From the NCBI RefSeq assembly GCF_900142725.1, contig NZ_FRBW01000003.1:310001-374000 (forward strand): 64,000 nucleotides of DNA, read 5' to 3'. This document shows, one piece after another, positions 24,310 through 32,194 of the stretch. How positions within the stretch are numbered: the first letter of the stretch is position 1; the number at the start of each line of letters is the position of its first letter. The notes under the pieces were generated by a model. The model saw only the letters and a list, made by a program, of their open reading frames with translations, did not search any database and was not told the origin of the DNA. A program made the position numbers and the translations under genes. This DNA is from Roseibium suaedae. Its GTDB lineage: Bacteria > Pseudomonadota > Alphaproteobacteria > Rhizobiales > Stappiaceae.

Positions 24310-27228
24310 ATGACCAAGCAAGCCTCAGGCCGTGCGATTGACCCCACCCGCACCATTTCGGTGCGCGGTGCGCGCGAGCATAATCTGAAAGGCGTTGACC
24401 TCGACCTGCCGCGGGACAAGCTGATCGTGATGACCGGCCTGTCCGGTTCGGGCAAGTCGTCCCTGGCCTTTGACACCATCTATGCCGAGGGCCAGCGCCG
24501 CTACGTCGAAAGCCTGTCGGCCTATGCGCGCCAGTTCCTGGAAATGATGCAGAAGCCGGACGTCGACCAGATCGACGGCCTGTCCCCCGCCATTTCCATC
24601 GAGCAGAAGACCACCTCGCGCAACCCGCGCTCCACCGTGGGCACCGTCACCGAGATCTATGACTACATGCGCCTTCTGTTTGCGCGTGTCGGCATTCCCT
24701 ATTCCCCGGCAACCGGTCTGCCGATCGAGAGTCAGACGGTCAGCCAGATGGTCGACCGGGTGATGGAGCTGCCAGAAGGCACCCGCCTCTATCTGCTGGC
24801 GCCGATCGTGCGCGGCCGCAAGGGCGAATACCGCAAGGAACTGGCCGAGCTGATGAAGAAAGGCTTCCAGCGGGTCAAGATCGACGGTGCTTTCCACGAG
24901 ATTTCCGAAGCCCCTGCCCTGGACAAGAAGTTCAAGCATGACATCGATGTGGTCGTGGACCGTATCGTGGTGCGCGACGACATCGCCGGCCGCCTTGCCG
25001 ATTCCTTCGAAACGGCCCTGAAGCTCGCCGAAGGAATCGCGATCGCCGAATATGCGGACGGAACCGACGACAAGGGCGATCCGCTGCGCATCATCTTCTC
25101 GGAGAAATTCGCCTGCCCGGTCTCCGGCTTCACCATTGCCGAGATCGAGCCTCGGCTGTTCTCCTTCAACAATCCCTTCGGTGCCTGCCCGGCCTGCGAC
25201 GGTCTCGGCACCACCCTCGCCTTCGAGGCGGACCTTGTCGTGCCGGACCAGAGCCTTTCCTTGCGCGAAGGCGCCGTCCTGCCCTGGGCCAAGACCGGCT
25301 CCACCTCGCCCTATTACAACCAGACCCTTGAGGCCCTTGCCCGCCACTTCAGCTTTGCCATGTCCACACCCTGGCGCGACCTGCCCCAGGAGGTTCAGAC
25401 AGCCATTCTCTATGGCACAGGCAAGGATGCCATCGAGGTCGTCTATGATGACGGTGTTCGCTCCTACCGGACGGAGAAGCCGTTTGAAGGGGTAATCGGC
25501 AACATCGAACGGCGTTGGCGCGAGACAGAATCCAGCTGGGTGCGGGAAGAACTCGCAAGGTTCCAGTCCGACCACGCCTGCCCGGCCTGTCAGGGCTTCC
25601 GCCTGAAGCCTGAGGCACTGGCCGTGAAGATCAATGGCCGGCACATCGGCGAGATCACGGAAAAGTCGATCCGCGAAGCCGGCGACTGGTTCAATGACTT
25701 GCCTGGCAAGCTGACGCCCAAGCAGGAAGAGATCGCCGGCCGCATCCTGAAGGAAATCCGCGAGCGGCTTCAGTTCCTGAATGACGTCGGCCTCGACTAT
25801 CTGGCGCTTTCACGTGCCTCCGGAACGCTTTCGGGCGGCGAAAGCCAGCGGATCCGCCTGGCCTCCCAGATCGGCTCGGGCCTGACCGGGGTGCTTTATG
25901 TCCTGGACGAGCCATCCATCGGCCTGCACCAGCGCGACAATGCCCGGCTGATCGAAACGCTGAAGCATCTGCGCGACCTCGGCAACACGGTGATCGTGGT
26001 CGAGCATGACGAGGATGCGGTTCTGGCGGCCGATTATGTGGTTGATGTCGGCCCGGGCGCGGGCGTCCATGGCGGCGAAATCATTGCAGCCGGTACCCCG
26101 GCCGAAATCATGGCCAATCCGAAGTCCCTCACCGGCCAGTATCTGTCCGGCGCAAAGATGGTCGAAGTGCCCCATGAACGGCGCAAGATCAACAAGCGGC
26201 GCCAGATCAAGGTGGTCGGCGCCAGAGGCAACAACCTCAAGAACGTCAATGTGGATGTGCCGCTCGGCACCTTTACCTGCGTGACCGGGGTTTCGGGCGG
26301 CGGCAAGTCCACCTTCCTGATCGACACATTGTTCAAGGCAGCGGCCCGCCGCCTGAACGGTGCCCGCGAGAACCCGGCACCTCATGACCGCATCGACGGA
26401 CTGGAACTGCTCGACAAGGTGATCGACATCGACCAGTCGCCGATCGGACGCACGCCGCGTTCCAATCCGGCCACTTATACCGGTGCCTTTACCCCCATCC
26501 GCGAGTGGTTCGCCAGCATGCCGGAGGCCAAGACTCGCGGTTATCAGGCGGGGCGCTTCTCGTTCAACGTCAAGGGCGGACGCTGCGAAGCCTGTCAGGG
26601 CGACGGCGTCATCAAGATCGAGATGCACTTCCTGCCAGACATCTATGTCACCTGCGACGTTTGCAAGGGAAAACGCTACAACCGTGAAACCCTGGAAGTG
26701 CTGTTCAAGGGCAAATCCATTGCCGACGTGCTGGACATGACCGTGGAAGAGGCTGCCAGCTTCTTCTCCGCTGTTCCCGCCGTGCGCGACAAGATGGAGA
26801 CCCTGGCGCGCGTCGGCCTCGGTTACATCAAGGTCGGCCAGCAGGCCACCACCCTGTCGGGCGGCGAAGCGCAGCGCGTCAAGCTGGCCAAGGAACTCTC
26901 CCGCAGGTCGACGGGCCGCACGCTCTATATCCTGGACGAGCCGACCACCGGCCTTCACTTCCATGATGTCGCCAAGCTGCTTGAAGTGCTGCATGAGTTG
27001 GTCGACCAGGGCAACTCGGTGCTGGTGATCGAACACAATCTGGAGGTCATCAAGACAGCAGACTGGATCGTCGACCTTGGACCGGAAGGCGGCGATGGCG
27101 GCGGGACCATCGTTGCGGAAGGCACGCCGGAAACCATCGCCGCGACGGAGGCAAGCTACACCGGCCAATTCCTGAAGGAACTGCTGGAGCGCCGCCCGCA
27201 GACCGCAAAAGCCGCCGTGAACCAGTAG
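24310..27228 (+). CDS. uvrA: Excinuclease ABC subunit A
   Basis: ATPase that finds bulky DNA lesions for nucleotide excision repair. The 972-residue length is typical. The first ATPase half has Walker [14 protein letters not shown] and signature [16 protein letters not shown]. The second has Walker [14 protein letters not shown] (one Gly replaces the usual Ser, a common variant) and signature [15 protein letters not shown]. Zinc-finger motifs CPACDGLG and CEACQGDG with [10 protein letters not shown] are intact. The start [12 protein letters not shown] agrees with other rhizobial UvrA. It is probably LexA-regulated through the upstream GTTC-N7-GTTC site, and a terminator follows. Confidence 0.98.
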
Positions 27229-27361: not shown

Positions 27362-27410
27362 GCATGACTCAGTCATGCTGCATTGCACTGAGCGCATGAC
27401 TGTCATGCGC
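27362..27410. promoter_or_regulatory. Twin GCATGAC/GTCATGC palindromes upstream of DUF1127 gene 1
   Basis: Two perfect dyads share a core: GCATGAC-TCA-GTCATGC (27362-27378) and GCGCATGAC-T-GTCATGCGC (27392-27410). Their centres are 31 bp apart, about three helical turns. They lie 106-154 bp before the first DUF1127 start, immediately past the uvrA terminator. This looks like a tandem operator for a dimeric regulator I cannot name. Confidence 0.6.
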
Positions 27411-27515
27411 TTAATGCGCTTCTTTAAATTTGAGTGGTGAATTATATCTTCGTCAACAGATCGATGACGCGGCGCACAAAACTCTGTTGCGACGCAAAAT
27501 TTAAAAGGTTATAAC

Positions 27516-27665
27516 ATGTTCGACACCGTCGTTCGCAAGTACAGCACCTGGGTCAAGTACCGTCGCACCATCGACGAACTGTCCCGTCTTTCTTCCCGCG
27601 AACTGAGCGACCTCGGCATCCACCGCAACGACATCAAGTTCGTTGCACGCCGCAGCGCAGTCTAA
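27516..27665 (+). CDS. DUF1127 protein 1 (49 aa)
   Basis: Small basic protein of the DUF1127 family (PF06568), starting MFDTVVRKYSTWVKYRR and containing the family signature ELSRLSSRELSDLGIHRNDI. The ATG at 27516 follows AAAAGG. Known relatives include CcaF1 of Rhodobacter, an RNA-binding factor co-transcribed with CcsR sRNAs, and small rhizobial proteins affecting phosphate and carbon metabolism. Arg/Lys residues in the first half form an amphipathic helix suited to nucleic acid contact. It is followed within 4 bp by the first of three anti-Shine-Dalgarno hairpin units, so gene and RNAs are probably one transcript. RNA-binding by this copy is inferred. Confidence 0.9.
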   Translation: MFDTVVRKYSTWVKYRRTIDELSRLSSRELSDLGIHRNDIKFVARRSAV

Positions 27666-27668
27666 TTC

Positions 27669-27792
27669 GAGATCGCGCTCCACCGAGCCACCTCCTCCCA
27701 GGCTCCGGAGCGCGTAAAACGGACAAGGCATCCTCCTCCCAGTCTTGTCCGCGGAAACGTCGCCCGTCAGCACCTCCTCCCGCTGACGGGCG
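27669..27792 (+). ncRNA. Anti-SD three-hairpin RNA, unit 1 (cuckoo/CcsR-like)
   Basis: Three hairpins each display CCTCCTCCC in the loop, complementary to the GGAGG ribosome-binding core. A: CGCGCTCC 27674-27681 with GGAGCGCG 27707-27714, inner GAGCC/GGCTC. B: GGACAAG 27721-27727 with CTTGTCC 27744-27750. C: CGCCCGTCAGC 27761-27771 with GCTGACGGGCG 27782-27792. The order A-B-C recurs twice downstream. The loops resemble those of the cuckoo and CcsR sRNAs. There is no coding potential and no terminator here, so it is likely processed from a longer transcript. Confidence 0.8.
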
Positions 27793-27827
27793 AGCGTTCC
27801 ACCCGGTGAAAGTCCGGACCAGATTTT

Positions 27828-27950
27828 GAGATCGCGTCTCACATGAGCCACCTCCTCCCAGGCTCGAGACGTGTAAATGGACAAGGCATCCTCCTCCCAG
27901 TCTTGTCCAAAGAAACGTCGCTCACCAGCACCTCCTCCCGCTGGTGAGCG
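27828..27950 (+). ncRNA. Anti-SD three-hairpin RNA, unit 2
   Basis: Same A-B-C layout as unit 1, beginning with the same GAGATCGCG. A: CGTCTC/GAGACG with inner GAGCC/GGCTC. B: GGACAAG 27879-27885 with CTTGTCC 27902-27908. C: CGCTCACCAGC 27919-27929 with GCTGGTGAGCG 27940-27950. Loops are again CCTCCTCCC. Arms of A and C differ from unit 1 on both sides in a compensatory way, which argues for selection on structure. Confidence 0.8.
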
Positions 27951-27994
27951 TCCGTTTCCTCCCGGAGCCAAAAGCCACGGGAAAAAAGAACATA

Positions 27995-28124
27995 GAGATC
28001 GCGTCTCACCGAGCTACCTCCTCCCAAGCTCGAGACGTGCGACCCGGCGGAGCATCCTCCTCCCAGTTCCGCCAAGTCAAATGCGCCTGCCAGCACCTCC
28101 TCCCGCTGGCGGGCGTTTTGCTTT
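27995..28124 (+). ncRNA. Anti-SD three-hairpin RNA, unit 3, ending in a terminator
   Basis: Third copy, starting GAGATCGCG. A: CGTCTC 28002-28007 with GAGACG 28032-28037, inner GAGCT/AGCTC. B: GGCGGA 28046-28051 with TCCGCC 28068-28073. C: CGCCTGCCAGC 28084-28094 with GCTGGCGGGCG 28105-28115, followed by TTTTGCTTTT, so hairpin C here can end transcription. All three loops keep CCTCCTCCC although every stem has changed at least partly. Confidence 0.8.
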
Positions 28125-28467
28125 TCAGCCTCTCCATTTTCCCAAAACAGCTCCCAGCATCACCCATGACGCCGGACGCAGACATGCGGCCGCAGCACAG
28201 CTTGCCGGGCAGTTCGGCCGCGCCGCACCACAAATAAGGTGCGCCGCACCATCAATCTGCACACACCTTGATCAGCAACTGGACGCAGACGAGCTAAAAT
28301 GGCCGCTTTGCTTAGTTCGCAGTCACGAAGCCTGCATTTTATGCAGAGCAGGAGTGCAATTTGCCCACTACCTCAGCATGGCAAATCACCCTATTTGAAC
28401 GGCACACCACGAGGCGGACGCTGCAGCGCAGCGAAAGCCCAATCTCCAAAAGAAAAGAAGAACAACC
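28125..28467. other. Intergenic region before DUF1127 gene 2
   Basis: About 340 bp without a gene. It holds a perfect dyad GGTGCG-C-CGCACC at 28238-28250 and an inverted repeat ATTTGCC/GGCAAAT around 28350-28380. The region presumably contains the promoter and leader of DUF1127 gene 2, because the preceding unit ends in a terminator. Confidence 0.4.
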
Positions 28468-28617
28468 ATGCTTACGTCCGTTGTCCGCAAGTACCAGTCC
28501 TGGCGCCGTTACCGCAGCACTTACGAAGAGCTGTCCCGCCTGTCCAACCGCGAGCTGCACGATCTCGGCATTGCCCGCGGCAACATCGACTACTTCGCTT
28601 ACAACTCGGCTCGCTAA
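28468..28617 (+). CDS. DUF1127 protein 2 (49 aa)
   Basis: DUF1127 family protein starting MLTSVVRKYQSWRRYRS with signature ELSRLSNRELHDLGIARGNI. The ATG at 28468 follows AAGAAG. It is the most divergent C-terminus of the five (YFAYNSAR) and has His in place of the Ser common to the others after REL. It is followed by a GC hairpin without an anti-SD loop (28628-28662) and by gene 3 150 bp later, so genes 2 and 3 may share a transcript. Confidence 0.88.
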   Translation: MLTSVVRKYQSWRRYRSTYEELSRLSNRELHDLGIARGNIDYFAYNSAR

Positions 28618-28627
28618 GGCAGACGTT

Positions 28628-28662
28628 TCCCGCTCAAGACAGGCCGAACGGCCTCAGCGGGA
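28628..28662 (+). other. Hairpin between DUF1127 genes 2 and 3
   Basis: TCCCGCT (28628-28634) pairs with AGCGGGA (28656-28662), enclosing a second perfect stem AGGCCG-AA-CGGCCT. There is no T-run, so it is an mRNA structure or processing site and not a terminator. Its loop lacks the CCTCCTCCC motif found in the other hairpins. Confidence 0.55.
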
Positions 28663-28766
28663 TCTGCAAGACGCACCGGAAGCTGCAGTGGCCCCATCCA
28701 CTCCGAAAAAACAGGTCAGTGCCCACAGAAGGCTCTGGCCGGCAGACCACAAAAGGGAAGAAACAA

Positions 28767-28916
28767 ATGATCGGCACCGTTGCCCGCAAATACCAGAACT
28801 GGAAGCGTTTCCGTTCTGTCTACAATGAACTGTCCCGCCTGACCCCGCGCCAGCTGTCCGACATCGGCATCACGCGCGACGACATCATGCCGCTGGCACG
28901 TTCCTCCGTACGCTAA
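28767..28916 (+). CDS. DUF1127 protein 3 (49 aa)
   Basis: DUF1127 family protein starting MIGTVARKYQNWKRFRSVY with signature ELSRLTPRQLSDIGITRDDI. The ATG at 28767 follows AAGGGAAG. The N-terminal half is nearly identical to proteins 4 and 5. A strong terminator follows (28953-28989) with no anti-SD loop. Confidence 0.9.
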   Translation: MIGTVARKYQNWKRFRSVYNELSRLTPRQLSDIGITRDDIMPLARSSVR

Positions 28917-28952
28917 CCGCACGGCCGGCACAGCCGGCAAGACGGTTCTTCA

Positions 28953-28991
28953 AAAAAGCCCGTATGGCCCTCCGGCCTGCGGGCTTTTTGT
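28953..28991 (+). terminator. Intrinsic terminator after DUF1127 gene 3
   Basis: A 10-bp stem (AAAAAGCCCG 28953-28962 with CGGGCTTTTT 28980-28989) ends in a T-run. An inner GGCC/GGCC pairing is possible. Confidence 0.85.
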
Positions 28992-29052
28992 CCTTTCGGG
29001 TCCTGCCCAGGTTTCCCGAAGGTGAGATTTCCTTACCAAAGTATTACCAAAG

Positions 29053-29350
29053 TCCAAGACCTGCATTTTCGTCAGATCAGACGTGCGGTTTGGCCTCTAC
29101 CTAAGGCAGATCTGCAGGACTATCTTCAGTTCATCAAATGACGAACGGGCCTGACGCCGATCCGCGGTGCTTTAGGCCACAGAGAGAAGAAAGGCCTATC
29201 ATGTTCACCAACGTTGCACGCAAGTACCAGAGCTGGAAGCGCTTCCGGAACACCTACGACGAGCTGTCCCAGCTCTCGAACCGTGAGCTTTCCGACCTCG
29301 GCATCAGCCGTGGCGACATCATGTCCCTGGCGCGGAACGCTTCGCGCTAA
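29053..29350 (+). repeat. Tandem duplication copy 1 (leader plus DUF1127 gene 4)
   Basis: From TCCAAGACCTGCATTTT onward this segment matches 29516-29814 nearly base for base through the leader, then through the coding region. The copies are offset by 463-464 bp. The leader is as conserved as the gene, including a dyad GTTC-A-TCA-AA-TGA-C-GAAC at 29129-29146. This shows a recent duplication of the promoter-leader-gene unit. Confidence 0.85.
29201..29350 (+). CDS. DUF1127 protein 4 (49 aa)
   Basis: DUF1127 family protein starting MFTNVARKYQSWKRFRNTY with signature ELSQLSNRELSDLGISRGDI. The ATG at 29201 lies downstream of AGAAAGG. It differs from protein 5 at only a handful of positions (Ser/Asn, Asn/Ser, Gly/Ala, Met/Arg and the last residues), and the two arose by tandem duplication. 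It is followed by two anti-SD-loop hairpins, the second being the terminator. Function is probably RNA-related as for other members, by inference. Confidence 0.9.
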   Translation: MFTNVARKYQSWKRFRNTYDELSQLSNRELSDLGISRGDIMSLARNASR

Positions 29351-29365
29351 GGTCTGACACATATT

Positions 29366-29457
29366 CCGGGCAGCCGACCTCCTCCCACGGCCCGCCCGGC
29401 GCTACGCGAAAGCGGAAGCACAAAAGCCCGCCGGCTCCTCCCTCCGGCAGGCTTTTT
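29366..29457 (+). ncRNA. Anti-SD hairpin pair behind DUF1127 gene 4, with terminator
   Basis: Hairpin 1: CCGGGC 29366-29371 and GCCG pair with CGGC and GCCCGG 29394-29399 around the loop ACCTCCTCCCA. Hairpin 2: AAGCC-C-GCCGG (29424-29434) pairs with CCGGC-A-GGCTT (29444-29454) around CTCCTCCCT and runs into TTTTTT, a terminator whose loop is itself anti-SD. It likely gives a stable 3'-end sRNA from the DUF1127 mRNA. Confidence 0.75.
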
Positions 29458-29515
29458 TATTGCCTTGCGCAGACCTGATTTCAAACAACGACCAAGTTAA
29501 TAAAAGTAAATCATT

Positions 29516-29814
29516 TCCAAGACCTGCATTTTTGGAAGATCAGGCGTGCGGTTTGGCCTCTACCTAAGACCGATCTGCAGGACTATCTTCAGTTCATCAA
29601 ATGACGAACGGGCCTGACGCCGATCCGGGTGCTCCAGGCCATAGAGAGAGAAAGAAGGCCTGTCATGTTCACGAATGTTGCTCGCAAGTACCAGAACTGG
29701 AAGCGTTTCCGGTCCACCTATGATGAGCTGTCCCAGCTCTCCAACCGCGAGCTTTCCGATCTCGGCATCAGCCGTGCCGACATCCGCTCCCTGGCACGCG
29801 ACAGCGTCCGCTAA
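29516..29814 (+). repeat. Tandem duplication copy 2 (leader plus DUF1127 gene 5)
   Basis: Second copy of the segment at 29053-29350. The leader dyad is conserved at 29592-29609. Scattered substitutions lie mainly before the dyad and just before the start codon, so the copies are old enough to differ but young enough to align without large gaps. Confidence 0.85.
29665..29814 (+). CDS. DUF1127 protein 5 (49 aa)
   Basis: DUF1127 family protein starting MFTNVARKYQNWKRFRSTY with signature ELSQLSNRELSDLGISRADI and ending LARDSVR. The ATG at 29665 follows AAAGAAGG. It is the closest paralogue of protein 4. It is followed by two hairpins with anti-SD or near anti-SD loops, mirroring gene 4 but with different stems. 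Confidence 0.9.
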   Translation: MFTNVARKYQNWKRFRSTYDELSQLSNRELSDLGISRADIRSLARDSVR

Positions 29815-29833
29815 GGGTTGAAGATTTCCAGAA

Positions 29834-29926
29834 TCAGACGGCCGCTCCTCCTCCCACAAGCCGTCTGAAGCGCCGCGAAAGCGGACGCAAAAATGCCCGC
29901 CGGTTTCCTCCCCCGGCGGGCTTTTT
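29834..29926 (+). ncRNA. Anti-SD hairpin pair behind DUF1127 gene 5, with terminator
   Basis: Hairpin 1: TCAGACGGC 29834-29842 pairs with GCCGTCTGA 29860-29868; the 17-base loop contains CTCCTCCTCCC. Hairpin 2: GCCCGCCGG 29895-29903 pairs with CCGGCGGGC 29913-29921 around TTTCCTCCC, followed by TTTTT. The stems differ from the equivalent pair behind gene 4 while the pyrimidine loops are kept. Confidence 0.75.
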
Positions 29927-29965
29927 CTTTGTCTGCTCTCCGAGCAATCAGCCTGCCACGACAAG

Positions 29966-30793: not shown

Positions 30794-32194
30794 ATGACCC
30801 CCATCCATGTGATTGGCGGCGGACTGGCTGGTTCAGAAGCTGCCTGGCAGATTGCCCGCCGCGGCATTCCCGTCGTGCTCCATGAAATGCGTCCCGTCCG
30901 CAAGACCGACGCGCACAAGGGGGAAGGACTGGCAGAACTGGTCTGCTCCAACTCCTTCCGTTCCGATGACAGCGAGCACAATGCGGTCGGCCTGCTTCAT
31001 CACGAGCTGCGTCAGGCAGGATCGCTGATCATGGCTTGCGGCGACGCCAACCAGGTGCCCGCCGGCAGTGCGCTGGCCGTGGACCGGGACGGATTCTCAG
31101 ATGCCGTCACCCGCGCCCTTGAAGAGCACCCGCTGATCACCATTGAGCGTGAGGAAATTGCTGGCCTGCCGCCGGAAAGCTGGGACAGCGTGATCGTGGC
31201 AACCGGTCCGCTGACCTCCCCGGCCCTGTCCGAGGCAGTTCTTGCCCGGTGCGGCGAAGATGCGCTGGCCTTTTTCGATGCCATCGCGCCGATTGTCCAT
31301 TTCGACACGGTGGATCTCTCCAAGGCCTGGTTCCAGTCCCGCTATGACAAGGTAGGCCCCGGCGGCAACGGCAAGGACTATCTGAACTGCCCGCTCGACA
31401 AGGACCAGTATGACGCTTTCATCGACGCGCTGATTGCGGGCGACACCGCCGATTTCAAGGAATGGGAAGAAAACACGCCCTATTTCGACGGCTGCCTGCC
31501 CATCGAAGTGATGGCAGCGCGCGGACGCGAGACCCTGCGCCATGGGCCAATGAAACCCATGGGGCTGACCAATGCCCATAATCCGACCGTGAAGGCCTAT
31601 GCGGTGGTTCAGCTGCGCCAGGACAATGCCCTCGGTACGCTCTACAACATGGTTGGTTTCCAGACGAAGCTGAAATACGGCGCCCAGGCGGAGATCTTCA
31701 AGATGATCCCTGGCCTGGAAAATGCCCAGTTCGCGCGACTCGGCGGCCTGCATCGCAACACGTTCCTGAATTCGCCGAAGGTTCTGGATGGCACCCTTCG
31801 CCTCAAGGCAGAACCGCGCCTGCGCTTTGCCGGTCAGATCACCGGCTGTGAGGGCTATGTGGAATCGGCCAGCGTCGGTTGCATGACCGGTATCTTCGCC
31901 GCATTGGAACGCCTCGGCCGCGATATCGTCACGCCTCCGGAAACCACCGCCATGGGCGCCTTGATCGGACACATCACCGGCGGTCATATCTCGCGGGAAA
32001 ACGAAGGTGGCCCGAGCTCCTTCCAGCCGATGAACGTCAATTTCGGCCTGTTCCCGCCGGCCGAGGCACCAAAGACCGGTGCGGACGGCAAGCGGCTGAA
32101 GGGCAAGGAAAAGACCAATGCCAAGAAGCTGGCCATGACCGAACGGGCCAAGGCCGACTTCGCCGCCTGGATCGCCCCGCTTCAGCCGGAATAA
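30794..32194 (+). CDS. trmFO: tRNA (m5U54) methyltransferase, folate/FAD-dependent
   Basis: Methylates U54 of the tRNA T-loop using methylenetetrahydrofolate and FADH2. The 466-residue protein starts [20 protein letters not shown] with the FAD dinucleotide motif at residues 7-17. Family-specific signatures are [20 protein letters not shown], the [14 protein letters not shown] segment and [15 protein letters not shown]. This distinguishes it from the related tRNA modification protein MnmG. It is monocistronic, convergent with the mechanosensitive channel gene downstream. Confidence 0.96.

Follow-up and report, generated by a model that had tools for sequence, protein, structure and literature searches.

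Genes and hairpins of the locus

The locus described here lies in a 64,000-nucleotide (nt) stretch of DNA from Roseibium suaedae (contig NZ_FRBW01000003.1, positions 310,001 to 374,000), called the window below, and is part of contig 8 of a 5.14-Mb genome. It features five short DUF1127 genes and 13 hairpins whose loops carry an anti-Shine-Dalgarno (anti-SD) motif. The five genes of 49 codons each, whose small products are rich in arginine, were noted in a first-pass annotation of the sequence, and the open reading frame (ORF) list and Pfam agree on them; the DUF1127 family (PF06568) matches all five ORFs with E-values of 7.9e-16 to 5.7e-14 and 52–58 bits, at a gathering cut-off of 23.3. The 13 anti-SD loops of that annotation are likewise found, with nine exact copies of CCTCCTCCC between genes 1 and 2 and four more loops 3′ of genes 4 and 5. 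It also described genes alternating with hairpins; both are present, but the alternation is not strict, as there are no anti-SD hairpins 3′ of genes 2 and 3. The order of the elements is gene 1, nine hairpins, genes 2, 3 and 4, two hairpins, gene 5, and two hairpins. The features are listed below, with protein lengths in amino acids (aa).

27384–27406, + strand: predicted LsrB/VtlR site, TGCA-N6-GCAT-N3-TG-N3-T, 132 nt before gene 1 (pattern match)
27419–27424 and 27442–27447, + strand: putative promoter, CTTCTT, a 17-nt spacer and TTATAT (by eye)
27516–27665, + strand: DUF1127 gene 1, 49 aa (ORF list, Pfam)
27670–27798, + strand: alpha-r14 unit 1, three anti-SD hairpins (RF02344, 61.4 bits; fold)
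27834–27955, + strand: alpha-r14 unit 2, three anti-SD hairpins (RF02344, 70.3 bits; fold)
27999–28120, + strand: alpha-r14 unit 3, three anti-SD hairpins, the last followed by a T-rich tail (RF02344, 62.4 bits; fold)
28468–28617, + strand: DUF1127 gene 2, 49 aa, without an anti-SD hairpin 3′ (ORF list, Pfam)
28767–28916, + strand: DUF1127 gene 3, 49 aa, without an anti-SD hairpin 3′ (ORF list, Pfam)
28953–28989, + strand: hairpin resembling a terminator, 3′ of gene 3 (fold)
29040–29200, + strand: leader or promoter region of gene 4, a near copy of the gene 5 leader (87% identity)
29201–29350, + strand: DUF1127 gene 4, 49 aa (ORF list, Pfam)
29361–29459, + strand: alpha-r14-like unit made up of an anti-SD hairpin, a GAAA hairpin and a terminator-like stem with an anti-SD loop (RF02344, 45.9 bits)
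29505–29664, + strand: leader or promoter region of gene 5 (sequence comparison with the gene 4 leader)
29665–29814, + strand: DUF1127 gene 5, 49 aa (ORF list, Pfam)
29829–29928, + strand: alpha-r14-like unit with the same three parts as the one behind gene 4 (RF02344, 50.9 bits)

The hairpin loops copy the core of the anti-SD sequence of 16S rRNA. The motif CCTCCTCCC occurs 12 times on both strands of the window, 11 of them on the + strand of the locus, and 100 shuffles gave a mean of 1.1 and a largest count of 6. Nine of the copies lie within 27691–28104, one is 3′ of gene 4 (29378) and one is 3′ of gene 5 (29847), and the second anti-SD hairpins 3′ of genes 4 and 5 bear CTCCTCCC and TTTCCTCCC. 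The 456-nt block at 27669–28124 folds with −214 kcal/mol (z = −11.2, reached in 0 of 100 shuffles) and all nine motifs are in loops, while the stretches 3′ of genes 4 and 5 fold more weakly (z = −2.5 and −3.7). Behind each of these two genes a GAAA-loop hairpin sits between the two anti-SD hairpins. The second anti-SD hairpins look by eye like intrinsic terminators with an anti-SD loop because their stems precede T runs; a consensus terminator scan did not list them. A weak TTTCCTCCC stem near 27957 is outside any unit by the present count and is taken in by a loose-loop run counter, which scores the window run as 10.

The covariance model of the Rfam family alpha-r14 (RF02344) matches units 1–3 at 61.4, 70.3, and 62.4 bits, all above the cut-off of 58.8. 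By these matches the nine-hairpin block is a series of three tandem units of the NfeR1 family, and in each unit the folds and a 48-row alignment reveal three hairpins with CCUCCUCCC unpaired in each. The units behind genes 4 and 5 miss the cut-off (45.9 and 50.9 bits) and the anti-SD loop is absent from their middle hairpin. NfeR1 (alpha-r14) is reported to have three hairpins with the CCUCCUCCC anti-SD motif in each, to be Hfq-independent, and to silence ntrBC and two transporter mRNAs in S. meliloti (PMC10746234; PMC7143759). Silencing works via the CCUCCUCCC motifs, and loop mutants no longer silence (PMC10746234). The anti-SD loop family, known as cuckoo RNAs, was described by Reinkensmeier et al. 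(PMC3927594), and short DUF1127 genes coupled to CcsR-like RNAs have been termed the CIN1 locus (PMC10253847). The first-pass annotation missed that the three-hairpin unit is this named and functionally studied family and that a recognisable regulator site is also present.

Comparison with relatives, set as a check in that annotation, gave loops that are kept and stems that covary. The alignment consists of 48 of the 59 listed units, with 11 left out by choice (L067, L068, L072, L079), and the loops are invariant across it apart from a few single changes. Compensatory changes on both sides occur in 20 of the 22 consensus pairs (14.6 in shuffles), and 94.4% of the cells are paired; shuffles give 78.7%, and slid partners no more than 43.2%. 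The consensus fold resolved the second and third hairpins; the first, whose stem length varies, is visible in single-sequence folds.

Arrays in related genomes and their linkage to DUF1127

Related loci were collected in two sets. The Stappiaceae set consists of 40 annotated stretches from 36 of 60 other genomes of the family, and a pattern scan for three adjacent motifs in a collection of 84,980 species gave at least 120 stretches; two contigs (L171 and L223) are in both sets. Counts from the scan are among the matches listed and omit seven stretches from other groups; the rest are titled Alphaproteobacteria except for L131 (Pseudomonadota). The 23 loci called Rhodobacterales-like were assigned by eye from database titles, with L131 and L181 placed by the appearance of the locus, and the DUF1127 lengths in scanned loci depend on the start codon chosen by the script. 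RF02344 is found at E ≤ 0.001 in 60 of 61 family genomes, that of R. suaedae included, and above the cut-off in 40 of the 61. Across the class it is found at E ≤ 1e-4 in 11 of 289 genomes, and only R. suaedae is above the cut-off. A class-wide scan for two adjacent copies of CCTCCTCCC was set aside as too blunt, since several of its 16 hits among 289 genomes also matched the reversed control.

The arrays are linked to DUF1127 genes by position and strand. A short DUF1127 gene is present in 35 of the 40 Stappiaceae stretches, the other five all being from genus g6 (G006, G012, G018), and a frequent layout is a DUF1127 gene, three hairpins, a second DUF1127 gene and another unit. Among the scanned runs away from locus ends, 47 of 88 have a DUF1127 gene within 600 nt on the same strand and 0 of 88 on the opposite strand, and random places gave 7 of 1030. 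In 39 of 49 Stappiaceae runs and 20 of 21 Rhodobacterales-like runs, fewer than 130 nt separate the array from the end of a preceding DUF1127 gene. In the window, gene 1 ends at 27665 and the first unit begins at 27670, the CIN1-type arrangement of a DUF1127 gene followed directly by the array. Units 1–3 correspond one to one to those of a genome of the same genus (G046) with 98, 94, and 96% identity, versus 71–83% between non-corresponding units, so by this comparison the three-unit array predates the split from G046.

The number and regularity of the hairpins had been taken to exceed those of described loci, which the comparison does not support. A Stappiaceae genome (L059) has 12 exact loops in one run and a Loktanella metagenome-assembled genome (L220) has 14, with 10 each in L143, L173, and L204, so the window does not hold the record; the layout of a DUF1127 gene followed by hairpins is common in the family. 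Apart from that of the window, expansions within the family include nine exact loops in G014 and 12 in G005. Most arrays of Rhodobacterales-like loci follow a DUF1127 gene; they have 6–15 loops by the loose counter (three in L131) and at most 14 exact ones (L220). What stands of the earlier interpretation is that of an RNA locus of the CcsR/cuckoo kind encoded with DUF1127 genes, with alpha-r14 matching all three units of the nine-hairpin block.

Other arrangements are also seen. In three rhizobial loci (L152, L155, L159) the order of the parts is reversed, and two three-hairpin units stand upstream of one or two DUF1127 genes. Locus L100 (G214) has a two-hairpin array and then a DUF1127 gene with a second array, and TGCA-N6-GCAT boxes precede each.

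The predicted LsrB/VtlR site and the LsrB genes

The sequence TGCACTGAGCGCATGACTGTCAT, located 132 nt 5′ of gene 1, fits both the LsrB motif TGCA-N6-GCAT, reported in PnfeR1 at −72 to −60 (PMC10746234), and the VtlR box GCAT-N3-TG-N3-T (PMC7486931). The start expected by eye from the TTATAT at 27442 is near 27454, which would place the motif of the predicted site (27384–27397) at about −70 to −57, close to its place in PnfeR1; a consensus scanner reported no sigma-70 site at the predicted promoter. The composite LsrB/VtlR pattern occurs three times in the 5.14-Mb genome and not at all when read backwards. The other two sites are at C6:1291975–1291997 and C11:102412–102434, and the annotation of the 3-kb loci around them (L261, L263) shows neither a DUF1127 gene nor an anti-SD hairpin. 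The convincing feature of the site is its position, not the pattern count.

The position is shared by many related arrays. TGCA-N6-GCAT is found within 250 nt upstream of 28 of 39 DUF1127-led runs in Stappiaceae (100 shuffles: mean 0.74, maximum 4) and of 32 of 39 scanned DUF1127-led runs (shuffles: mean 0.71, maximum 3), and read backwards it is absent from all sets (0 of 39 in both DUF1127-led sets). Scanned arrays without a leading DUF1127 gene have the LsrB motif in 17 of 75 cases (1.09 in shuffles) and the VtlR pattern in 40 of 75 (1.94 in shuffles); the ten Stappiaceae runs of this kind have none and one, respectively. Downstream of the run, the LsrB motif is found in 7 of 39, 2 of 34 and 7 of 70 cases and the VtlR pattern in no more than 15 of 70, and some of the downstream motifs lie in leaders of the next DUF1127 gene. 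A VtlR 15-mer has been published for Brucella (PMC12595884); with up to three mismatches it lies upstream of 51 of 93 other scanned runs and downstream of 6 of 89.

Rhodobacterales-like runs with at least 200 nt upstream (21 runs; 23 loci) have at least one LsrB motif in 20 cases and at least two in 11, and the doubled boxes stand 39–40 bp apart. The Brucella 15-mer (up to three mismatches) is upstream in 21 of 21 of these runs versus 0 of 16 downstream and 1% of simple shuffles. Beyond that set, the 3-kb locus of a CcsR-like array of the Rhodobacterales-like kind in G082 (L115) has no TGCA-N6-GCAT, and the motif is present in G312 and G214.

The genome of R. suaedae encodes the candidate regulator. 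A LysR gene specifies a 298-aa protein whose best match in the Protein Data Bank is 9HH1 (E 1.7e-122), which is LsrB of A. tumefaciens (PMC11975290). A trxB-like ORF, recognised by motif, precedes this gene, and lsrB behind trxB is the arrangement reported in the same paper. The gene adjoins alpha-r15-like and alpha-r14-like matches at C6:889048–889393, which score 26.1 and 31.2 bits, both below cut-off; the AbcR family (alpha-r15, RF02345) requires 40 bits, and the position of the 26.1-bit match beside lsrB agrees with AbcR. The stretch before the AbcR-like pair behind lsrB (L006, L264, L266) contains CGCATAGCAGCATTGCA, close to the Rhodobacterales box.

LsrB relatives were also found in Rhodobacterales, in 12 genomes that represent 12 of the 23 loci and were picked by hand. 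All 12 have one close relative with 44–48% identity (E 6.1e-82 to 2.4e-73), and the next LysR protein in these genomes matches at E 1.5e-35 or weaker. In the DNA-binding region, 35–36 of 47 positions agree, versus 16–23 for 18 paralogues. A reverse search with one of these proteins (L288, Phaeovulum veldkampii) returned the Roseibium LsrB first, at 1.4e-78 versus 8.3e-37. The identity gap and the reciprocal best match of this one protein suggest that the Rhodobacterales proteins are orthologues. The trxB motif was found beside LsrB in 0 of 12 Rhodobacterales genomes, versus 7 of 11 other relatives and R. suaedae.

Proposed mechanism and alternative explanations

The locus is probably an enlarged operon of the CIN1/ccaF1-CcsR type that is driven by LsrB and whose 3′ untranslated region (UTR) gives rise to RNAs masking Shine-Dalgarno (SD) sites. 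The LysR-type regulator LsrB (VtlR) would bind at 27384–27406 and activate one transcript of ~670 nt, consisting of DUF1127 gene 1 with the nine anti-SD hairpins as its 3′ UTR. This 3′ UTR would be cut into NfeR1-type RNAs of 120–130 nt with three CCUCCUCCC loops each, by analogy through RNase E, with the DUF1127 protein modulating the process. The loops would pair with SD sites of the GGAGG type and repress the translation of mRNAs, chiefly those for uptake and catabolism, and the copy number of the units would set dosage and valency. Genes 4 and 5 with their own leaders may be a later, duplicated DUF1127-plus-RNA unit whose terminators also bear anti-SD loops. We infer that protein and RNA are produced jointly and act jointly.

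A perfect GGGAGGAGG-N3-10-ATG, the mark of candidate targets, occurs 14 times in the genome and once when read backwards. One of the 14 falls within the array in antisense orientation, eight precede ORFs of 100 aa or more, and the other five precede shorter ones. The eight encode a DctP solute-binding protein, an ABC ATPase, an L-rhamnose mutarotase, an HpcH/HpaI aldolase, a thiolase, a MoxR-type ATPase, a DUF4440 protein, and one protein without a Pfam match. This list would agree with the transport and catabolic targets of NfeR1 and is a lead only.

The locus resembles three known systems. With alpha-r14/NfeR1 (RF02344) it shares the three hairpins, the CCUCCUCCC loops, a length of ~123 nt and an LsrB-type motif ~60–70 nt before the start, here a predicted one. 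NfeR1 is reported as a 123-nt transcript with its own promoter (PMC10746234), whereas the window has three tandem units behind a DUF1127 gene and two reduced, below-cut-off units that end in terminator-like stems. With ccaF1-CcsR1-4 of Rhodobacter sphaeroides (the CIN1 locus) it shares a DUF1127 gene and a CCUCCUCCC hairpin array in the (here predicted) 3′ UTR. The R. sphaeroides RNA has two stem loops (PMC3927594), whereas the window units have three hairpins; CcaF1 has 71 aa (PMC10253847), whereas the window encodes 49-aa proteins from five DUF1127 genes. The ccaF1-CcsR promoter of R. sphaeroides is reported to be dependent on RpoHI/RpoHII (PMC10253847), and the LsrB-like boxes described above stand upstream of arrays in Rhodobacterales relatives. 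The third system is the VtlR/LsrB regulon of Brucella and Agrobacterium, with the same regulator and with DUF1127 genes and anti-SD RNAs as targets (PMC12595884, PMC7486931). In those reports the protein and RNA targets are separate genes, whereas in the window one predicted site precedes both.

Several observations weigh against an LsrB-driven operon of jointly acting protein and RNA. Six of the 11 class-level alpha-r14 genomes, whose matches are below cut-off, have no LsrB at E ≤ 1e-40 (G078, G309 (L117, L118), G290, G338, G069, G203), and RNA and regulator are therefore separable. In the window each pattern alone occurs at the level of chance (LsrB 4 versus 3.8, VtlR 9 versus 9.0). Among DUF1127-led runs of Stappiaceae, the exact motif is absent from the 250 nt upstream in 11 of 39 and is also found downstream in 7 of 39. 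The Brucella 15-mer fits the window poorly, its best place within 250 nt having four mismatches and lying elsewhere than the site, and at up to three mismatches it is weakly enriched in Stappiaceae (15 of 49 upstream versus 5 of 49 downstream). The genomes within one family are non-independent samples, and one covariation control, that of further pair types, is weak, with 48 of 500 shuffles reaching the observed value. Nor is there agreement that DUF1127 binds RNA; YjiS showed no RNA binding, and the Agrobacterium DUF1127 proteins are reported to act on PhoR (PMC12501420). Finally, avoidance of self-targeting is not evident, with GGAGG before 3 of 106 hairpin-linked DUF1127 genes versus 44 of 964 crude ORF starts (p = 0.62). 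Self-insulation of the DUF1127 genes by lack of an upstream GGAGG holds for all five window genes, yet is not distinguishable overall and was rejected; matches of at least 6 nt are found before 0 of 106 and 37 of 964, respectively.

In an alternative explanation, the RNAs act like NfeR1 and the DUF1127 proteins are functionally unrelated to them, being separate members of the LsrB regulon that are expressed from a shared promoter and act by contacting other proteins such as PhoR. In Brucella, VtlR is reported to activate DUF1127 genes and AbcR2 at separate loci (PMC12595884), and in Agrobacterium DUF1127 acts through PhoR (PMC12501420). Among the matches listed, 40 of 74 rhizobial-type runs lack a DUF1127 gene within 600 nt on their own strand (34 have one), and the VtlR pattern precedes 40 of the 75 runs without a leading DUF1127 gene. 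However, the distance from the end of the gene to the array is below 130 nt in most Stappiaceae (39 of 49) and nearly all Rhodobacterales-like runs (20 of 21), and CcaF1 is reported as an RNA-binding protein that takes part in CcsR maturation (PMC10253847). We regard this explanation as possible and rather doubtful. An array that acts mainly in cis, as a 3′ stabiliser or as a processing or termination region of DUF1127 mRNAs with little activity in trans, would suit the terminator-like last hairpins and the strong stems directly after the gene 1 stop codon. It is quite improbable, as NfeR1 loop mutants lose silencing (PMC10746234), a stabiliser would need no invariant loops while its stems drift, and many arrays of the alpha-r14 type have no DUF1127 gene in front of them (75 of 114 runs among the matches listed).

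The array might also be an SD sponge that brakes translation in general and does not regulate chosen mRNAs. It is in keeping with a sponge that the loops copy the 16S rRNA anti-SD core and would be many per transcript. Six DUF1127 genes are reported among the 30 most tetracycline-induced genes of S. meliloti (PMC12218461). NfeR1, however, has tested targets, namely ntrB and two transporter mRNAs (PMC10746234), and the genome has as few as 14 perfect 9-nt sites ahead of an ATG, which makes a sponge unlikely. That the repeats are functionless tandem DNA, REP-like or selfish in some other way, is very hard to sustain: the unit is duplicated in tandem and its number varies between species, but the units have one-to-one orthologues in the genome of the same genus (98, 94, and 96% versus 71–83%), the place beside DUF1127 is conserved, and the stems covary.

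Anti-SD RNAs coupled to a DUF1127 gene are already known from alphaproteobacterial stress loci (ccaF1-CcsR and CIN1), and the novelty of the locus as a large, well-formed example is modest. What is new is the predicted LsrB/VtlR input, which appears to be common to many arrays of Rhizobiales, Stappiaceae, and Rhodobacterales. It is reasonably likely that NfeR1/alpha-r14 of Rhizobiales and ccaF1-CcsR of Rhodobacterales represent a single ancestral system whose LsrB/VtlR-type input is conserved, at TGCA-N6-GCAT ~60–70 nt before the start of a DUF1127-plus-RNA transcript, in Rhodobacterales through a box pair ~40 bp apart and besides RpoH. Because such a system would span both orders, LsrB would not be unique to Rhizobiales. 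A 2025 report, drawing on a tree of selected species, describes LsrB as apparently unique to Rhizobiales (PMC11975290), and the putative orthologues in Rhodobacterales contradict this confinement. In a literature search that did not cover the two papers at the origin of the field (Grützner 2021; Reinkensmeier and Giegerich 2015), none of the papers listed joins CcsR with LsrB/VtlR, and none treats CcsR, LysR, and Rhodobacter sphaeroides together. With such an input, the DUF1127/anti-SD-RNA operons of two orders would gain a common, testable regulator, and the NfeR1, CcsR and VtlR-DUF1127 lines, which were studied apart, would become joined. If LsrB does drive the CcsR RNAs, the sensing of redox and nitrogen stress and SD-masking RNAs would be linked in one old circuit.

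The 3′ part of the locus and its surroundings show some further features. Positions 29040–29458 and 29505–29930 are a tandem duplication of a leader, gene and terminator unit with 82% identity, and the proteins of genes 4 and 5 are identical at 42 of 49 residues. The leaders of the two genes (87%) are more conserved than their RNA units (72%), which suggests that the leader carries some element of its own. A conserved upstream ORF before genes 4 and 5, as in S. meliloti duf1127-1, is not supported, since the shared ATGACGAACGGG is in frame with gene 4 and out of frame with gene 5. The locus is flanked by genes at 24310–27228 and 30794–32194, which from their protein sequences we take to be UvrA-like and TrmFO-like, respectively.

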